Origin: Bacillota bacterium
GTDB taxonomy: Bacteria; Bacillota; Limnochordia; DTU087
Assembly (NCBI GenBank): GCA_012519025.1
Contig: JAAYQZ010000052.1
Location: forward strand, 1-64,000
Direction: 5' to 3'
DNA length: 64,000 nt
Made by a program: the position numbers and the translations under genes. Positions 3,469 to 63,548 of the stretch are shown here, piece by piece (the stretch's first letter is position 1; each line of letters starts with the position of its first letter). The notes beneath the pieces were generated by a model that saw only the letters and a list, made by a program, of their open reading frames with translations, was not told where the DNA came from and searched no databases.

Positions 3469-4602
3469 GTGCGGGTTCTTATCGCGGCAGGTGGAACCGG
3501 TGGCCACATCTATCCGGGGCTGACTATTGCAGATGAAATCAAGCGGCGCTTTCCCAAGGGCGAGATTGCTTTTGTTGGAACAAAGTACGGCCTGGAGACG
3601 AGCATTATTCCACGGGCAGGCCATCGGTTAGAACTGATCGAAGTCAAATACTTCGAAAGAAAACTGTCCTTAGACACATTGAGGACGTGTTTTGTGGCAG
3701 TAAAAGGTGTCAGCCAATCACTTGCATTGATGGGAAAATTTCAGCCGGATATAGTCATCGGCACCGGCGGGTATGTGGCAGGGCCGGTGCTTTTAGCAGC
3801 TGCTTTGCGCAGGATTCCAACACTCATACAAGAACAAAATGCATTCCCCGGGGCCACCAGCCGAATCCTCGGCAAGTTTGTTAATCTAGTTGCTTTGGGG
3901 TATGAAGAGGCAGACAAGTTTTTTCCGTCCCGAAAGGTTGTCGCAAGCGGCAATCCTATTCGACAAGAAATTGTCGAAGTCACAAAAAAAGAAGCCGTTG
4001 ATGCACTTGCTTTAGAGCCTGGGTTACCCACTGTAGTGGTTTTCGGCGGCAGCCAGGGTGGTCGAAGTATTAATCAAGCCATGGCAGAGTTGAGACCACG
4101 CCTTTTGGCACACTCAATTCAGGTAATTCACCAGACCGGCCAGCAAGCGTATCCCAGCACAGCGGAGGGGATCCTCACCAGGCTGGGAAAGCCGATACCA
4201 AGTCCCTTACCGGATATGGTACAGGAAGGTCGTATCCGCACAGTTCCATACATTTACGATATGCCGGCAGCCTTAGCTGCCAGCGATCTAGTAGTGGGAA
4301 GAGCTGGTGCCATCTCTTTAGCAGAGATTGCAGCAAGGGGCCTTCCTGCTGTTTTGATTCCTTTTCCCTACGCCGCTGCCAACCATCAAGAAAAAAATGC
4401 GCGGGTGTTTGAAAATGCCGGTGCCGCCAAAGTCTTGCTAGATAAAGATGTAAGCGGCAAAAGCCTGGGAGATCTGGTTTTCGAATTATTAAATAATAGG
4501 GCTCAGCTCGCAAAAATGGCCGCGGCCAGCAAATCTCTGGGCCGAATCAGTGCTGCTGAAGCAGTGGTTGATCAAATAGAGGAGCTGATCAGGCCGGTTT
4601 GA
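3469..4602 (+). CDS. murG: UDP-GlcNAc--MurNAc-pentapeptide GlcNAc transferase
   Basis: AAGGTGGHIYPGL N-terminus, GGSQGGRSIN, ending IEELIRPV; SD aggaggtg. Confidence 0.96.
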   Translation: MRVLIAAGGTGGHIYPGLTIADEIKRRFPKGEIAFVGTKYGLETSIIPRAGHRLELIEVKYFERKLSLDTLRTCFVAVKGVSQSLALMGKFQPDIVIGTGGYVAGPVLLAAALRRIPTLIQEQNAFPGATSRILGKFVNLVALGYEEADKFFPSRKVVASGNPIRQEIVEVTKKEAVDALALEPGLPTVVVFGGSQGGRSINQAMAELRPRLLAHSIQVIHQTGQQAYPSTAEGILTRLGKPIPSPLPDMVQEGRIRTVPYIYDMPAALAASDLVVGRAGAISLAEIAARGLPAVLIPFPYAAANHQEKNARVFENAGAAKVLLDKDVSGKSLGDLVFELLNNRAQLAKMAAASKSLGRISAAEAVVDQIEELIRPV

Positions 4603-4777
4603 GGCTTAAATCCCGGGGAATGGGGCACAACACAAGACCTTTGCATATCATGTAGTATCTCTGCCTGAGGTTTTTGGGCAAACCGTAGATAGAGATACTC
4701 CGTGGCGCAGGGGTTTTTATCATTTTAGGCTTGCCGCGGGATCTCTTTAGCCAAAGGGAAGGCTGGGTGATGGACAT

Positions 4778-6028
4778 ATGTCAGTAATTCGAGTCTGTGG
4801 CGGTAGATCACTGCAGGGGTATATACCGATCAGTGGTGCTAAGAATGCAGTTTTGAAGCTCATGGCGGCCGCTTTGATGGCCCCCGGTTCTTATGTGATC
4901 CGCAATGTTCCCGCAATCCAAGATGTGTTTACTATGGTTGATTTACTTGAAACCTTAGGAGCTAAGGTGGATTTTAAGGATTCTATTTTAAAGATCCTGG
5001 TGGGAGAGGAAATTGGTGAAGAGGCACCACATGATGTCGTGCGGAAAATGCGTGCATCAATCCAGGTAATGGGTCCTTTGCTGGCCCGGCTTAAAAGAGT
5101 TAAAGTGTCGCTGCCGGGGGGATGTGCCATTGGCGAAAGGCCCATTGATTTTCATTTGAAAGGTTTGTATCAACTGGGAGCCAAAATTCATGAAGAATGC
5201 GGGTACATCTATGCCGAGACCAAGGGGCTTGTAGGTGCGGACATCCAGCTTGATTATCCAAGTGTGGGGGCTACAGAAAATTTAATGATGGCAGCAGCCC
5301 TAGCCAAAGGGACAACTCAGCTGCGCAATGTGGCCCGTGAACCGGAGATTGTAGAGGTACAAAACTTCCTCAACCGTATGGGGGCCAGCATTCGAGGGGC
5401 AGGAACCGATGTTATCCGCATTGAAGGCGTAGATGAGCTTCGGGGAGCGGATCATACCGTTATACCCGATCGCATTGAAGCGGGAACCTATCTGATTGCA
5501 GCAGCCATATGCGGTGGCTCCGTGACGTTAGGACCTGTCATACCACAACACTTAGCCGGTTTGACGGCAAAACTTAAGGAAATAGGGATTTATATCAAGA
5601 CCGAAAATGATCAAATTCGGGTGGAGTCGGATGGCAAGTACACAACTAGCAATTTTCAGTCTTTACCCTACCCCGGATTCCCAACCGATCTTCTTCCTCA
5701 AGCAATGGCCCTAATGACCACTGGGATTGGGACTAGTATCATTAAAGAAATGGTCTATTCAAATCGCTTTAAGCAGGTGAGTGAGCTGAGGCGCATGGGG
5801 GCCAAAATTGTAGTGGCAGACAGAACAGCAATTGTTCAAGGTGTGCCTTACCTGAGGGGTGCGGAAGTTGTAGTGTCTGATTTAAGGGCAGGAGCTGCTT
5901 TGGTGATAGCAGGTCTTAAAGCTGAAGGTGTGACTCTTATTCAAGACAGCGGCCATTTGAAACGAGGTTATGACAATTTAGTTCGAAAACTTCAAGCAGT
6001 GGGCGCCGACATTTCCCAACCGATGTAA
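4778..6028 (+). CDS. murA: UDP-N-acetylglucosamine 1-carboxyvinyltransferase
   Basis: ISGAKNAVLKLMAAALM; catalytic Cys present in LPGGCAIGERPIDFH. Confidence 0.95.
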   Translation: MSVIRVCGGRSLQGYIPISGAKNAVLKLMAAALMAPGSYVIRNVPAIQDVFTMVDLLETLGAKVDFKDSILKILVGEEIGEEAPHDVVRKMRASIQVMGPLLARLKRVKVSLPGGCAIGERPIDFHLKGLYQLGAKIHEECGYIYAETKGLVGADIQLDYPSVGATENLMMAAALAKGTTQLRNVAREPEIVEVQNFLNRMGASIRGAGTDVIRIEGVDELRGADHTVIPDRIEAGTYLIAAAICGGSVTLGPVIPQHLAGLTAKLKEIGIYIKTENDQIRVESDGKYTTSNFQSLPYPGFPTDLLPQAMALMTTGIGTSIIKEMVYSNRFKQVSELRRMGAKIVVADRTAIVQGVPYLRGAEVVVSDLRAGAALVIAGLKAEGVTLIQDSGHLKRGYDNLVRKLQAVGADISQPM

Positions 6029-6121
6029 AGCAAAATAAGGCTTTTGGCAGCAATTTTCTCCAATTCCTTTTCCCACCTATGATATAATTGAAATAGCAAT
6101 CTGCAGGGAAGCGGGAGAACT

Positions 6122-6832
6122 ATGCCTAAAAATTTGCGATCCTATTCAACGACAATCTCAGTGTTTGCGTTAATGTTAGTGATCGGCGCGTATGCTTTGC
6201 TTCATTCGCCGTTTTTCCTTGTCCAAAATATCCATGCCAGCGGTTCCAGCTATACTACAACACAGTTGGCTAAAATTGCCGGGATCGAGATCGGGACAAG
6301 CCTTTTGAAGCTCAATGTTGAGCTTGCCGAGAGCTATCTTGAGGAAGAGCCGATTATCTACAGAGCAATTGTCCGTCGCCACCTGCCGGGGACCGTTGTT
6401 ATTGAAGTTGAAGAGCGAACCCCGATTGCCGCTGTGCCCAACGGGTTGGAATTTTGGGGAGTTGCAGCTGATGGTACGGTTCTTGGCCCTTTGAACATGG
6501 CAGGAATAAGTTTACCGATAATCACCGGTGCTGATCCTAAAGAACTGGTAATTGGGCGTAAAAATCTCAGTGAGTTGGTAATGGGGGCCTCGATTTTGCA
6601 GGGGCTAGCACAGGGGATGCGGGATCAAATTTCCGAAGTCAATGTGGAAAGTCGGGATGGACTCCGTCTAATCTGCCGGAACTTGGTGCAGTTTTATCTT
6701 GGTGGACCGGGTCAGATGCAGGAGAAACTGCAGATAGTTGCTGCTTTTTTGCCGAAACTCGGCCAGGCAGCACCCCAGTCCGGTGCTTTCGTGGATGTTT
6801 CCAATCCAAACCGCCCCGTGGTGCGCAAATGA
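6122..6832 (+). CDS. ftsQ: FtsQ/DivIB-type cell division protein (POTRA domain)
   Basis: N-terminal TM, POTRA-like region (FLVQNIHASGSSYTTTQLAKIAGIEIGTSLLKLN), located between murA and ftsA. Confidence 0.88.
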   Translation: MPKNLRSYSTTISVFALMLVIGAYALLHSPFFLVQNIHASGSSYTTTQLAKIAGIEIGTSLLKLNVELAESYLEEEPIIYRAIVRRHLPGTVVIEVEERTPIAAVPNGLEFWGVAADGTVLGPLNMAGISLPIITGADPKELVIGRKNLSELVMGASILQGLAQGMRDQISEVNVESRDGLRLICRNLVQFYLGGPGQMQEKLQIVAAFLPKLGQAAPQSGAFVDVSNPNRPVVRK

Positions 6833-6907
6833 TAATACTGATAAAAGCCCTTAGTGAGACTGGGTGAAAGAGGGAATTTGCCCACATCGTGGAACTAGAA
6901 AGCAAAG

Positions 6908-8146
6908 GTGAAAATCTTGGGTTCTGTTCATCCGGAAGCAGGACACACAATGTCTGCTATTGAAATAGGTACTTCAAAGGTAACTGTCCTTATAGCTGCT
7001 TTTGATTCAAAAGGTGCTGTTCAGATTCTGGGGGCAGGTAGAAGTTCGCATAATGCTGTGCATAGAGGCGCTGTGTTAGAGGAGTCCCAAGTTGTAGATG
7101 CGATCTCAGAGGCGATTATTAAGGCCGAAAGGATGGCTGCTGTTCCATTATCCAATCCGCTGGTGGGAATCCCGGGTACCCACATTTCAGCATTTGTGGC
7201 CGGCGGTTCTGTAACCATTACTCGCTTGGGCAGTAAAGTTCAGCCAGCTGATATTGATCGGGTAATTGAAGCGGCCAAAGCAAGGGCAGTGCCGCTGGGG
7301 CGTCGTATAATTGGCTATGAGATTCTAGAATTCACAGTAGATGATGTGCATCTTGCTGCTTCTCCACTGGGGCAGCAAGCCCGCTACTTAGGTGCAGATG
7401 TTCAGTTTGTAACTCTTTCACTGGCGGCCTTAGAGAGCTACCGTGCCTGTTTGGCCAAGGCCGGCCTAAAATCGGACAAGATTATACCCTCCAGTATTGC
7501 AGCTTCTTATAGTGTTTTAACTCTAAAAGAGCGAGCAGAAGGAGTTATTTTAGTTGACGTGGGGGCAGGTTTGTGCGAGTTTGCGGTATATAAAGATGCC
7601 ATATTGCAGGATTTAGGTTGTTTACCGGTAGGGACCGAAAATTTTATTCAAGATTTGATTGTGGGTTTGAATATTACGAAAGATGAGGCAAGACACCTTT
7701 TACAAACTGTAGGTTTAAGGCCTGCCCAGGGGCTGGAGCATGTTGGGACCAAACTAGCACCTGGGGTTAGCTCGGAAGTGCTAGAAGGTTGCAATAGGAT
7801 TTTGGCGGCCAGAGGCGAAGAGATCTGGCAGCTGATTAATGAGGCAGTGACTAATGTAAATTTAGGTCGCAGCAGGCCGAAATACGTCAAATTGGTCGGT
7901 GGAGGGGCGTTGGTGCCCGGATTTAGAGAGCTTGGCACAGCGATTATGGATAGTTCTATTGAAGTGGCGCAACCGGCGAGCGTGGCTGGCTTACCCGAGG
8001 CTTGGCAAAATCCAAGCTCAGCTGTTTGTGTAGGTTTGATTTCGCACCAGATAGATGGGTTAGCGAAGTCGGCGGGGGATATAAAACAATCCGGAATGAT
8101 ACACGTGCCATGGCAAAAGATACGGACTTGGCTGGGGTTCCAGTAG
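6908..8146 (+). CDS. ftsA: Cell division protein FtsA (actin-like ATPase, SHS2 domain)
   Basis: [42 protein letters not shown]; directly before ftsZ. Confidence 0.93.
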
Positions 8147-8189
8147 TAAAGCTGCCGGTGGTTCCGGTTGGTGGGAGGTAGAGAGGGAC

Positions 8190-9254
8190 ATGTTCGAATT
8201 CGATATGGAGAATGGGCAATTTGCCGATATTAAGGTAGTAGGAGTTGGCGGAGGTGGCAACAATGCCATCAACCGCATGATTGAAGCGGAATTGCGAGGT
8301 GTGCAATTTATAGCACTGAATACAGACGCACAATCCTTACTACTGTCCAACGCCAGCCATAAAGTCCAAATGGGAGAAAAACTTACAAAAGGCTTAGGTG
8401 CTGGTTCTAACCCCGAGATAGGGCAGAAGGCAGCAGAAGAGAGCCGAGATGAAGTTAAAGATTTGTTGGCCGGTGCCGACATGGTGTTTATCACGGCAGG
8501 CATGGGCGGTGGGACCGGTACGGGTGGTGCACCTATAGTAGCAGAACTGGCCAGAGAAGTGGCGGCATTGACTGTGGGTGTTGTGACGAAACCATTTACT
8601 TTTGAAGGCAAACGCCGTATGAAACAGGCTGAAGAGGGGATTTTGGCGTTAAAAGACAAAGTGGACACCTTAATTACCATTCCAAACGATCGCTTGCTGC
8701 AGGTGGCAGAAAAGAAAACCTCAATCATAGAGGCATTTCGCATGGCAGATGAGGTCCTGCTGCACGGTGTTAGGGGGATTGCTAATTTAATTACTGTACC
8801 CGGTTTGATCAATCTGGACTTTGCCGATGTGCGCACGATTATGACCAACGCAGGATCGGCTTTAATGGGTCTGGGGTATGCCAGCGGCGAAAACAGGGCT
8901 GCTAAAGCTGCAAATATGGCTATTTCGAGTCCCCTTTTGGAGGCTTCCATTGAAGGGGCTAAAGGCATTTTACTAAATATTACGGGGAACTCTTCATTGG
9001 GCTTGTTCGAAGTCAACGAAGCCGCAGAGTTAATTGCAGCTGCAGCCGATAGTGATGCCAATATTATTTTTGGTGCTGTTATCGATGAGGATATCAAAGA
9101 TGAAATCCGTGTTACAGTGATCGCAACCGGATTCGATGAAAAAGCCGGCTCTAAAATGGGATTAGCTGAACGGCAAGCAAAGCAAGATGAGTTCGATATC
9201 AAGCCATTTGCCACCGATGATCTTGATATACCAGCTTTTCTGCGGCGCAAATAA
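8190..9254 (+). CDS. ftsZ: Cell division GTPase FtsZ
   Basis: [27 protein letters not shown] tubulin signature, C-terminal peptide [12 protein letters not shown]. Confidence 0.98.
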
Positions 9255-43964: not shown

Positions 43965-44187
43965 CTAATATTCCGGTAAGTAAGGCTACCATAGGGATAT
44001 GAGTTGCTGCCGCAAAGTAGTGGAGACACTATGAGCTGGTTAGCAGGCCATGTCGAAAACAAGGCATGATCTAATGCAATATCACCGCCCTATGGAGCTA
44101 AAGCCCAAACGGTGACATGCTGCAAACAGTTGCAGCTGTGTATGATGGATTAATCCACGCTAATCGGCTTTAGCGTGGATTTTTTAT
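43965..44187 (+). ncRNA. M-box (ykoK-type) magnesium riboswitch with intrinsic terminator
   Basis: GGTAAGTAAGGCTACCATAGGGATATGAGTTGCTGCCGC...CCGCCCTATGGAGCTAAAGCCC resembles the M-box conserved core. CATAGGG pairs with CCCTATG. Terminator AATCCACGCTAA-tcggc-TTTAGCGTGGATTTTTTA at 44153-44187; mgtA lies downstream. Confidence 0.87.
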
Positions 44188-57692: not shown

Positions 57693-58433
57693 TTGAGTAA
57701 GATACGACTACAAAAAATCTTGGCTGACGCCGGAATAGCTTCAAGACGTGCCAGTGAAGAGCTGATAACAGCCGGTCGGGTGGAGGTGAATGGTAAGATA
57801 GTGCAAACACCGGGCAGTAAAGCTGATCCGAACAGAGACATTATCTCGGTTGACGGTGAGCGCATCCCCGCCCCGAGCCCTAATGAATATTTCCTTCTGC
57901 ATAAACCGATGGGGGTAGTATCTACATCGAGTGATCCCCAAGGGCGTCCGACGGTTATGGATTATTTACCGAAAACCAAGGCCAGAATCTATCCCGTCGG
58001 CAGGCTTGATATGGACAGTGAGGGATTGGTCTTTTTAACCAATGACGGGGATATGACACTCATTTTCACCCATCCGCGCTATGAAGTAAAAAAGCGATAT
58101 CTGGTCGAAGTGACAAATCATCCAACACCCGCAACCATCAAACGGCTCAAACAAGGTGTTAGACTTGATGACGGCACAACAGCTCCGGCAAAAGTAAAAC
58201 TTATAAAAAGCCTCGCAAACAGTGCTTTATTGGAATTTGAAATCCACGAAGGCAAAAATCGACAGATTAGACGAATGTGTGCTGCTTTGGGTCACCAAGT
58301 ACTTTCTTTGAAACGCTTCCAGATGGGCCCGTTGACACTTGCTGACCTGGCCTTGGGGGAATGCCGAAAACTCAAACCACCAGAAGCTTTGGAACTCCAT
58401 GAATTTGTCCGGAAAGTTAAACAGGGTCAATGA
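57693..58433 (+). CDS. rluB: Ribosomal large-subunit pseudouridine synthase (RluB/RsuA family)
   Basis: S4 domain RLQKILADAGIASRRASEELI; catalytic PVGRLDMDSEGLVFLTNDG. TTG start. Confidence 0.93.
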   Translation: MSKIRLQKILADAGIASRRASEELITAGRVEVNGKIVQTPGSKADPNRDIISVDGERIPAPSPNEYFLLHKPMGVVSTSSDPQGRPTVMDYLPKTKARIYPVGRLDMDSEGLVFLTNDGDMTLIFTHPRYEVKKRYLVEVTNHPTPATIKRLKQGVRLDDGTTAPAKVKLIKSLANSALLEFEIHEGKNRQIRRMCAALGHQVLSLKRFQMGPLTLADLALGECRKLKPPEALELHEFVRKVKQGQ

Positions 58434-58522
58434 TGGGCTAAGGTTTTGCAAAGTATTATAGCTTGTGGTAAGATATCTCAAAATAGCTGGAGCAATCGGC
58501 TGTTCAAGGGAGGTTTTCCGAT

Positions 58523-60022
58523 ATGTTGTCATCCCCACACACTCGTGGAATACGGGGTGCTGTTACAGTTGAAGAAAACACTGAAAGTGCAATTGTTGAT
58601 GCAGCATGCCGGCTTACACAAGCCATCATAGAACAAAACGAGCTTAAGCAAAGCGAAATTGCCTGCATGCTTTTTACAGTGACCCAAGATCTGGATGCCG
58701 CATTCCCGGCTGCAGGGGCCAGAAAAGCCGGGCTTACCCAGACAGCGCTTATGTGCACAAATGAAATACCTGTTGCAGACAGCCTGGAAAAGTGCATCCG
58801 CGTTCTTACACTTGTCTCAACTGACCTAAAACAAGAAGAAATCCGCCACGTATATTTGGGAAAAGCGGCAGCCTTGCGCCCAGATTGGGTCGATTCGGCT
58901 GAAACAGAAGCTTTGCCAACAACAACTCCACCTTTTCCAACCCCATCTTTCCGTCCAACAATTTTAGACATCCTTCCCTACCAACCGGGCAAACCTATTA
59001 GTGAATTGAAGCGGGAAAGAGATCTAAATGACGTGATTAAACTTGCCTCGAATGAAAATCCTTTGGGCCCATCTCCCAAAGCACTCAAAGCCATAAAAAA
59101 TGTTTTAAATTCACTACATATTTACCCCGATGGAAGCTGTTTTGAACTCCGTCAAAAACTGGCCCAACGCTTCAATGTTGATGGGACTCAGCTGCTTTTC
59201 GGCAACGGATCTGATGAAGTGATCAAAATGTTTGGGCTGACTTTCTTAGAATCTGGTGACAAAGTCCTTTTCTGTGAACCGACATTTAGTGAATACACTT
59301 ATGCCACTAAGCTCATGGGCGCATCGAAACACACTGCTCCATTGGCAGATTATGCTTTTGATTTGAATGCATTGTTGAAGGCCATTGATTCATCCACCAA
59401 GCTTATTTTTGTCTGCAACCCCAACAATCCCACCGGTGCTTACCTGAACCACGCTGATGTAGCGAAATTTTTGGACAAGGTGCCTGAGCATGTTTTAGTG
59501 GTGTTTGATGAAGCGTATTATGAATACGTCACTGCCGAAGATTTTGTCGATAGCTTAAGCTTTGTACGTGAAGGTCGCAATGTGGCGGTACTGCGCACTT
59601 TTTCTAAAATTTACGGTTTGGCAGGTCTAAGGATTGGTTACGGCGTTGCACCCAAACATATTGCAGAGTTGGTACACAGGGTTAGAGAACCCTTTAATGT
59701 CAATGCTTTGGCACAAATTGGAGCCTTGGCGGCTTTAGATGATGAGGATCATGTCGAGCAAAGTCGGCGGCAAAACCAAGCAGGTAAAGAGTACTTATAC
59801 CGAGAATTGGCTGATCTTAATCTGGAATTTATCCCAACACAAGCCAATTTCATTTTCTTTGATTTAGATCAAAATGCCGGACTTGTGTTTGAAAAACTAT
59901 TGGACAAGGGTATCATTTGCCGCAAGGGAGAGGTTTTCGGCTGCCCAACATGGCTTAGGGTAACGATCGGCACCGAAACCGAAAACCGGCGCTTCATCAG
60001 TGCTTTAAAGACAATCCTTTAA
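58523..60022 (+). CDS. Bifunctional AroH-type chorismate mutase fused to HisC-type PLP aminotransferase
   Basis: N-terminal RGIRGAVTVEENT...DLDAAFPAAGAR...NEIPVADSLEKCIRVLTLVSTD...EIRHVYLGKAAALRPDW, Pro/Thr linker TEALPTTTPPFPTPSF, then the HisC fold (IKLASNENPLGPSPKA, CNPNNPTG, VVFDEAYYEY, FSKIYGLAGLRIGYG). One uninterrupted ORF with SD ggaggtt. Confidence 0.93.
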   Translation: MLSSPHTRGIRGAVTVEENTESAIVDAACRLTQAIIEQNELKQSEIACMLFTVTQDLDAAFPAAGARKAGLTQTALMCTNEIPVADSLEKCIRVLTLVSTDLKQEEIRHVYLGKAAALRPDWVDSAETEALPTTTPPFPTPSFRPTILDILPYQPGKPISELKRERDLNDVIKLASNENPLGPSPKALKAIKNVLNSLHIYPDGSCFELRQKLAQRFNVDGTQLLFGNGSDEVIKMFGLTFLESGDKVLFCEPTFSEYTYATKLMGASKHTAPLADYAFDLNALLKAIDSSTKLIFVCNPNNPTGAYLNHADVAKFLDKVPEHVLVVFDEAYYEYVTAEDFVDSLSFVREGRNVAVLRTFSKIYGLAGLRIGYGVAPKHIAELVHRVREPFNVNALAQIGALAALDDEDHVEQSRRQNQAGKEYLYRELADLNLEFIPTQANFIFFDLDQNAGLVFEKLLDKGIICRKGEVFGCPTWLRVTIGTETENRRFISALKTIL

Positions 60023-60032
60023 AAGGAAGTGA

Positions 60033-61091
60033 ATGACCTTGATTGTTGTAATGGAACACCAAGCATCCCAAGGAGCCGTTGATGCCCTTATCGCGAGACT
60101 GAGAGAAATGGGATTTGACACCCACTTGTCGGTAGGGGTAGAGCGCACCATTATCGGGGCCATTGGTCCAAAACGACCGGAGTACATTCAACAGTTGGGT
60201 GCGATGGCAGGCGTTGATCGAATTGTGCCTATTTTACAGCCTTTTAAACTTGCCGGTCGGGAGTTTCACGCTGAGGGGACCGCAGTGCAGGTGGGAGCAG
60301 TGACAATAGGTGCTGAGCCTTTGGTTGTCATGGCCGGACCTTGTGCCGTAGAAGGCGAAGAACAGCTTTTAAAGATAGCCCGGGAAATAAAATCCGCAGG
60401 GGCACATATGCTGAGGGGCGGTGCATTCAAACCCCGCACTTCACCATATTCCTTCCAAGGTCTAGAAGAAGAGGGACTTCGCATCTTAGCTTTGGCCCGG
60501 GAGCAGACCGGTTTACCGGTGGTTACAGAGGTGGTCAATCCCCGGGATGTGGAGCTTGTGGCACAATATGCAGATATGCTGCAAATTGGTGCTCGCAACA
60601 TGCAAAACTTTACCTTACTAAAAGAAGTAGGCAAAACACAAAAACCTGTTCTTCTTAAACGGGGCCTATCTGCCACCGTGGAAGAGTGGCTCATGGCCGC
60701 CGAATACATCATATCCGGTGGAAATGAGGACGTAGTCTTATGTGAGCGGGGCATTCGTACCTATGAAACAGAAACCCGCAATACCCTTGATTTGAGTGCA
60801 GTGCCGGCAATTAAGCATTACAGCCATCTCCCGGTTATTGTAGATCCAAGCCACGGTACCGGCCGCTGGAGATATGTTACACCCATGGCCAGGGCCGCAG
60901 TGGCCGCCGGAGCCGATGGGCTGATGGTGGAAGTTCATTCTGAACCTGAAAAGGCTTTATCCGATGGGGCTCAATCCTTAACACCGAAAAACTTCCAACA
61001 GCTAATCGAAGAGGTAGAAAAGATTGCAGAAGCCATTGGCCGTGATGCACGACAAAATGTGATAGGAGTCCAAGTCAATGAAACGCAGTAG
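60033..61091 (+). CDS. aroF: 3-deoxy-7-phosphoheptulonate synthase (type I-beta, N-terminal ferredoxin-like domain)
   Basis: [59 protein letters not shown]. Confidence 0.96.
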
Positions 61092-62223
61092 AATCGCTAT
61101 AATAGGACTTGGTTTGATTGGAGGCTCTTTGGCTTTTCGCTTAAAGCATAAAGGTCATTATGTGGTCGGGTGTGATATAGACAGCCAACAAACCGCCTTG
61201 GCCCAAGAGTTGGGTGCGGTCGATGAAATCGTCAAAACACTATCTGATGCTGCAAAAGGTGCTGATATAGTATTTTTGGCAGTTCCAGTAGGAACTATTG
61301 CGAAAACTTTTGCCGAAATAGCCCCTTACCTGAAAAAGAGCACTATCATCACGGATGTTGGTAGTGTCAAACGCCCGATTATGAATGCTTTGGCAGAACT
61401 CGAAGGTTCATTTTCCTTTATCGGCGGCCATCCAATGGCCGGCCGTGAGCAGGGTGGAATTGCCGCGGCTGATCCCAACCTGTTTGAAAATGCAGTCTAT
61501 GTTCTAGTACCGCCCCCTGAAGGGGAAAATGGAATGGCTGAAAATGGGTCACGATACCCTTTCAACATGCTGAAGAATCTAATTGAGCAGGATCTTGGGG
61601 CCCATGTCACTATCATGGATGCCGCGACCCACGATGAAATAGTCGCTGCCGTAAGCCACATGCCCCATGTTGCTGCTGCAGCCATAGTCAACGCATTGGG
61701 CCAAACAGCAAACACAACCTCCCATGCTTTGGCATTGGCTGCCGGTGGTTTTCGGGACACAACACGCATCGCCTCCGGTTCCCCTAAACTATGGGCAGAT
61801 ATATGCCTGTACAACCTGGCATCAGTGCTGCGCACTGTGGCACATCTTCAGGATCAGTTAGAGATCTTTCAAGAAGCTCTTTTGGTTCGGGATGTCAACG
61901 CCTTAGAAGAATTCTTTGAAAGTGCCAAGCTACTAAGAGAAAAAGTCCCTATTGCCCAAAGAGGACTGATTGCACCCTTATACGAGATTGTAGTACCTAT
62001 CCCCGACACACCGGGAAGCATCAATGCGGTAACAGCTGTTTTAGCTGATGCTTCCTTAAGCCTTAAGGATATAGGTATCCTTAGGCAGCGGGAAGGGGAG
62101 ATAGGCGCCCTGCGTTTAGGATTCAATGACAGGCTATCCCGAGACCAGGCTTTGAATATACTCACAATCGAAGGCTACCGTGCTTACAGCCCTGAAGATT
62201 CTAAGGATGTGGCAAAATCGTGA
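61078..62223 (+). CDS. tyrA: Prephenate dehydrogenase with C-terminal ACT domain
   Basis: [33 protein letters not shown]-terminal [33 protein letters not shown]. Confidence 0.95.
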
Positions 62224-63548
62224 TACTAAAAACTGCACCATCGAAAACTTTGCGCGGAAAGATTAAGGTTCCCGGAGACAAATCTATCAGCCACCGCGCG
62301 GCCATCTTAGCTGCGTTGGCTGAGGGCAAAACTACCATTCAAGGTTTTTTGGAAAGTGAAGATTGTCTCAATACTTTACACTGCTTATCTCAGTTAGGTG
62401 TTGAAATAAATCGCCTTGGAGCCGGCAATTATGAGATCCTGGGTCGGGGTGAAGATGGTCTGATAGAACCGGCCGAGGTGCTGGATTGCGGCAATTCGGG
62501 CACAACCATGCGCTTGCTTACAGGTGTTTTGGCTTCTCAGCCATTTTTCTCTATTCTGACAGGTGATGCTTCGCTTTGCCAAAGACCCATGGCAAGAGTG
62601 ATCCAGCCGCTTAGTGCGATGGGGGCTCGAATTTATGGCCGAGCAAACCATACAAAAGCCCCGCTGGCTGTTTTAGGCACCGATGACCTTCTGGGCATAT
62701 CTTATATAATGCCTACAGCCAGCGCGCAGGTGAAGAGCTCGATACTTTTTGCCGGTCTGGCCGCCAACGGTGATGTGGTAATCCGTGAACCGGCGCCCAG
62801 CCGCAATCATACTGAGGTAATGCTTGAACAGTTTGGAGTCAATGTCGATATAAAGGGCCTGAAAATCTCTATGCCAGGAGGCCAAAAACCCAAAGGTACG
62901 CAGGTGGAAGTGCCGGGTGACATTTCTTCTGCGGCCTTTCCTATGGCTGCTGCGGCTATTTTACCCGGTTCCGATATTGTAATTGAAAACGTAGGAATTA
63001 ACCCCACTCGCCGAGGTGTAGTTCAAGCGCTTCTAGCTATGGGTGCTGACATAACCGTAACTCCATTAAACAAAACCGGGGAGGTTAGGGCCAACATTCG
63101 TGTACGGGGGCGAAAAACCAAACTTAGGGGTATTCGTTTGGAGGGTGCAATAATACCAAGTCTAATTGATGAGCTGCCGGTTATTGCCGCGGCTGCAGCG
63201 TTTGCTGAAGGTACTACTGTGATTAAGGATGCGGCTGAGCTTCGGGTTAAAGAATGTGATCGCATCAGCGCCATAAGCAGTGAGCTCGGCCGCCTAGGTG
63301 TGGATATTACCGAGCAAGCCGATGGTTGGATCATAAAAGGCAGCAGTGGGCATGACATTCAGGGAGGGCAGGTAAGGGGGTTTGGTGATCACCGCATTGT
63401 TATGGCTTTGGCGGTGTTGGGGCTTGGGGCTGCAGAATCCGTGCAAATCAGTGATGTTCAGACTATAGAAATATCATTCCCGGGGTTTGTTGATGTGTTT
63501 AAGCAGCTTGGGGGTTGCATGGATCTTAAGCAAAAATGCTCCCAATAG
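62220..63548 (+). CDS. aroA: 3-phosphoshikimate 1-carboxyvinyltransferase
   Basis: LRGKIKVPGDKSISHRAAILAALAEG; LDCGNSGTTMRLLTG. Confidence 0.97.
   Translation: MILKTAPSKTLRGKIKVPGDKSISHRAAILAALAEGKTTIQGFLESEDCLNTLHCLSQLGVEINRLGAGNYEILGRGEDGLIEPAEVLDCGNSGTTMRLLTGVLASQPFFSILTGDASLCQRPMARVIQPLSAMGARIYGRANHTKAPLAVLGTDDLLGISYIMPTASAQVKSSILFAGLAANGDVVIREPAPSRNHTEVMLEQFGVNVDIKGLKISMPGGQKPKGTQVEVPGDISSAAFPMAAAAILPGSDIVIENVGINPTRRGVVQALLAMGADITVTPLNKTGEVRANIRVRGRKTKLRGIRLEGAIIPSLIDELPVIAAAAAFAEGTTVIKDAAELRVKECDRISAISSELGRLGVDITEQADGWIIKGSSGHDIQGGQVRGFGDHRIVMALAVLGLGAAESVQISDVQTIEISFPGFVDVFKQLGGCMDLKQKCSQ

Follow-up and report, generated by a model that had tools for sequence, protein, structure and literature searches.

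An AroH-HisC fusion gene encoding 499 amino acids occupies positions 58523 to 60022 of the window, i.e. the whole stretch of 64,000 nucleotides that was analysed. The frame opens with an ATG at 58523, runs without interruption to a stop codon at 60020-60022, and is preceded by a ribosome site, AAGGGAGG, located at 58506-58513, nine bases 5' of the ATG. This gene and its neighbours all lie on the forward strand. Upstream is an RluB-type pseudouridine synthase (57693-58433; Pfam S4 and PseudoU_synth_2), a neighbour conserved in fused and unfused relatives. Downstream follow, in this order, a DAHP synthase of the AroF/B. subtilis type with a ferredoxin-like domain (60033-61091; TIGR01361 and NF006421, both above cut-off), the prephenate dehydrogenase TyrA (61078-62223; Pfam PDH_N and PDH_C), the EPSP synthase AroA (62220-63548; TIGR01356, above cut-off) and then Cmk; the first three, directly downstream of the fusion, support the aromatic-pathway setting proposed by a first-pass annotation of the same DNA. 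No RNA regulator was found at the fusion gene by the Rfam search. Elsewhere in the window, at 43965-44123 (+), an M-box magnesium riboswitch scores well above the Rfam gathering score.

The first part of the protein, residues 8-122 (58544-58888), is an AroH-type chorismate mutase domain, matched by Pfam CM_1 (E 7e-43, profile positions 2-116 of 116) and by the NCBIfam equivalog TIGR01796, with 124.8 bits against a curated cut-off of 82. A linker rich in proline and threonine (residues 123-143; 58889-58951) leads to a HisC-type aminotransferase domain (subfamily I-beta; residues 144-499; 58952-60019), which includes an N-terminal lid with Tyr153. Here Pfam Aminotran_1_2 covers residues 170-495 (E 3e-71), and the equivalog TIGR01141 is matched over positions 1-348 of 349, with 369 bits against a cut-off of 276.6. 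Pfam and both equivalogs thus agree with the earlier description of a complete AroH and a complete HisC joined in one frame. Among solved structures, the nearest relatives of the mutase half are AroH proteins; for the aminotransferase half the best PDB matches, by sequence and by fold, are 3ffh and 3get, and Foldseek ranks HisC structures first. Neither at the domain junction nor in the linker was a start codon found that had a credible ribosome site and could give a separate HisC.

The catalytic residues, previously described as intact, are all in place. In the mutase, Arg11, Arg67, Glu81, Arg93, Tyr111 and Arg119 are invariant among the 21 fused homologues, and the catalytic residues align with those of solved AroH; Arg11, Glu81, Arg93 and Tyr111 are the counterparts of B. 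subtilis AroH Arg7, Glu78, Arg90 and Tyr108. In the aminotransferase, Tyr153, Tyr201, Asn302, Asp329, Tyr332, Lys362, Arg370 and Arg479 are invariant in the same set, as is the SK motif containing the PLP-binding Lys362 (codon at 59606-59608), and the NPNNPTG motif at residues 299-305 is nearly so. Substitution rates were taken from the closest fused pair (G008/G009), and amount to dN 0.044 and dS 0.56 in the mutase domain, dN 0.052 and dS 0.66 in the aminotransferase domain, and dN 0.36 and dS 0.64 in the linker. The resulting dN/dS is about 0.08 in both domains, versus about 0.56 in the linker: purifying selection is equal on the two domains, and the linker is much less constrained.

The distribution of the architecture, another point raised by the first-pass annotation, was followed through the class, where the fusion was found in 21 of 73 genomes, belonging to five families (f1, 11 of 11 genomes; f8, 4 of 5; f10, 3 of 3; f12, 2 of 2; f11, 1 of 3). 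The ten other genomes compared from the same family (f1) all have the fusion, at 64-71% identity. An assembly artefact or a frameshift error joining two genes has therefore practically no chance of being the explanation: the frame is uninterrupted in each of these ten relatives, the fusion recurs in the 21 genomes, and its codons evolve cleanly. A missed stop or frameshift near 58900-58960, named in the first-pass annotation as the finding that would overturn the fusion, is likewise ruled out as a sequencing error by the 20 other intact copies.

The remaining families of the class have aroH and hisC as distinct, neighbouring genes, placed between the RluB gene and the aromatic genes; in most cases, the distance from the aroH stop to the aligned HisC start ranges from -13 to about 100 bases. 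The aminotransferase tree requires four changes of the fused state. An AU test of a single clade containing all 21 fusions rejected that clade (p 0.017), while a single origin was not rejected (p 0.07) for the 20 fusions that remain without G028, a fused genome from an otherwise unfused family. Since the tree needs four changes and the full test gives p 0.017, at least two origins are likely; one origin with several later splits is the less likely alternative. Within the phylum, AroH was found in 289 of 399 genomes and is almost always a stand-alone protein among the matches listed. No uninterrupted AroH-HisC fusion was seen outside the class among these matches, and all full-length matches there, in the 399 genomes, have in-frame stops between the two parts. 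Four such genomes (G271, G233, G214 and G350) carry aroH and hisC in the same frame, with one or two stop codons between them.

No second chorismate mutase can be recognised in its own genome: the fusion accounts for the single CM_1 match, and AroQ (CM_2, PF01817) gave no match. The fusion is also the only recognisable protein of HisC level there. The histidine genes hisZ, hisG, hisD, hisB, hisA and hisF are on another contig, and a search of this operon for a further hisC, as had been suggested, yielded none, including between hisD and hisB. PheA, the prephenate dehydratase, is encoded elsewhere in the genome. A second HisC-family paralogue, 38-41% identical and above the TIGR01141 cut-off, was observed in f1 relatives (L146-L154), in most of which it adjoins ABC-transporter genes; the genome of the window yielded no counterpart of it.

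A separate observation concerns glutamine amidotransferases (L145, G000:C69, 2091-3449, and the his genes at 3474-8375; f1 genomes). No HisH turned up in the genome that carries the window, nor in the relatives in f1, f2, f3 and f5, although hisB, hisA and hisF are present. In GuaA the glutaminase half is degenerate, as only part of the GATase profile is matched and no Cys nucleophile is seen; nor did f1 show a CarA-like GATase. The pattern suggests that class I glutamine amidotransferase activity was lost across the lineage and that ammonia is used directly.

The substrate range of the aminotransferase half was considered from its pocket. Four pocket positions separate the histidinol-phosphate aminotransferase of M. 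tuberculosis from its aromatic aminotransferase (PMC4703992), and in the fusion these are Asp231, Phe255, Glu257 and Phe391. The two phenylalanines fall at the positions of Phe110 and Phe246 of the M. tuberculosis aromatic enzyme, with Asp and Glu at the other two; Asp231 and the lid residue Tyr153 follow the HisC type, as they do in the Listeria enzyme, in whose alignment an identical Asp/Phe/Phe pattern is found. The pocket residues match Firmicutes HisC proteins, dual-function enzymes among them, a pattern that fits a broad enzyme, of the kind named HisHb (PMC1173090). As the sole HisC, this half must serve histidine if the strain uses the known route. The first-pass annotation had expected an aromatic transaminase "rather than, or as well as," a histidine enzyme; the hisC-less his operon and the sole HisC favour "as well as".

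The opposite restriction, in which this half would act on histidinol phosphate only, another enzyme would take care of the aromatic amino acids, and the fusion would be a neutral result of adjacency, was judged unlikely. The protein is indeed the sole HisC of the genome and scores as a HisC equivalog, and the genome also encodes a further type I aminotransferase (L002), which stays under all curated cut-offs. Yet the operon is entirely aromatic, lies apart from the his operon and keeps its arrangement across families, and the pocket phenylalanines match aromatic and broad enzymes.

The mutual arrangement of the two halves was evaluated on an AlphaFold2 monomer model, which consists of two confident domains (mean pLDDT 89.5) separated by a stretch, residues 122-138 in the linker, with pLDDT below 50, dropping to 37-41 over the linker core. 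The pTM of 0.69 leaves the mutual orientation of the domains undefined. Length and sequence of the linker vary between homologues; in the monomer model, this variable, apparently disordered linker and the pTM value argue against a fixed domain arrangement.

The same features bear on the prephenate channelling that had been put forward as a possibility, and for which no positive support was obtained. As TyrA or PheA normally acts next on prephenate, the mutase and aminotransferase steps follow each other directly only if the substrate of the transamination is prephenate itself. This is what a channelling enzyme would do: the aminotransferase half would take prephenate from the attached mutase and convert it into arogenate, the tether or a shared lid would channel it, and TyrA would be an arogenate dehydrogenase. 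The tether does link the C-terminal tail of the mutase to the N-terminal lid of HisC, and in the stand-alone enzymes both of these lie close to active sites. Arogenate is not usually formed by a HisC-family enzyme acting on prephenate, however, and the prephenate dehydratase PheA is present. The HisC lid has been described (PMC4703992), and tethered mutase-dehydratase enzymes had no benefit from channelling in tests (PMC10520331). With a linker that is variable and disordered, the fusion is most simply read as a means of co-expression and co-localisation, and channelling was considered quite improbable.

The reading we favour, and hold to be probable, is that of a bifunctional enzyme, in which an AroH mutase and a broad HisHb-type aminotransferase would together serve tyrosine and phenylalanine as well as histidine synthesis. 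The AroH half would convert chorismate into prephenate, from which TyrA, in the same operon, and PheA would form 4-hydroxyphenylpyruvate and phenylpyruvate; these would then be transaminated by the HisC half to tyrosine and phenylalanine, the same half also making histidinol phosphate for histidine. The fusion would have arisen, probably more than once, when the stop codon or frame that separated neighbouring aroH and hisC in an ancestral aromatic operon was lost, and the flexible tether would mainly set stoichiometry and co-localisation, with no tunnel. Three points count against this bifunctional enzyme: transamination, aromatic or other, could come from L002; the genome lacks a recognisable HisH, so that the histidine pathway is itself unusual; and a single origin is not rejected once G028 is removed.

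Known AroH is a trimer with active sites between subunits, and HisC is a dimer. With a linker of such length, a closed six-chain particle is conceivable. A stronger proposal, that mutase trimers and aminotransferase dimers form a closed particle of six or more chains, with local transfer of prephenate or its keto-acid products to the aminotransferase and a coupling of Tyr/Phe and His synthesis, and that this particle arose independently several times in one class, appears rather unlikely.

The same two enzymes, in the same order and followed by aromatic-pathway genes, are found in the B. subtilis-type supraoperon, where aroH and hisC (hisHb) are separate genes; in Listeria and Bacillus relatives the order is aroG > aroB > aroH > hisHb > tyrA > aroF (PMC1173090). 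A HisC-like aromatic aminotransferase is also fused to an aromatic-pathway neighbour in hisHb-tyrA of Rhodobacter sphaeroides (PMC1173090), but there HisHb is N-terminal and the partner is TyrA, not a chorismate mutase. Chorismate mutases tethered to aromatic-pathway enzymes are likewise known among AroQ proteins (PheA and TyrA of E. coli; exported CM-CDT, PMC10520331); AroQ is all-helical and unrelated in fold, whereas here the mutase is of AroH type and its partner is an aminotransferase. The HisC proteins of Listeria innocua (3ffh) and Campylobacter jejuni (3get), which among solved structures come closest to the aminotransferase half, stand alone, without a mutase domain. No published AroH-HisC fusion, and hence no earlier description of this one, was found in a search of freely accessible papers. 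What is new in the gene is how the domains are combined; the two enzyme families, and the adjacency of their genes, were already known.

The chorismate mutase fusions so far described in the searchable literature use the AroQ fold, and the present one is a conserved AroH fusion, in which a trimeric enzyme is tied to a dimeric one, the latter apparently required for histidine synthesis as well. Nature thus provides a case for testing whether a tether between enzymes that are not consecutive in a pathway brings channelling, fixed stoichiometry or nothing, and sister lineages that carry or lack the fusion are available for comparison.

Two other AroH fusions, each in one open reading frame, were also encountered. 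In genome G303 (L200, 1917-3143, minus strand) AroH is followed by cytidylate kinase (Cmk), and in genome G312 (L201, 1530-2381, plus strand) a type II dehydroquinase is followed by AroH, within a shikimate-pathway cluster.
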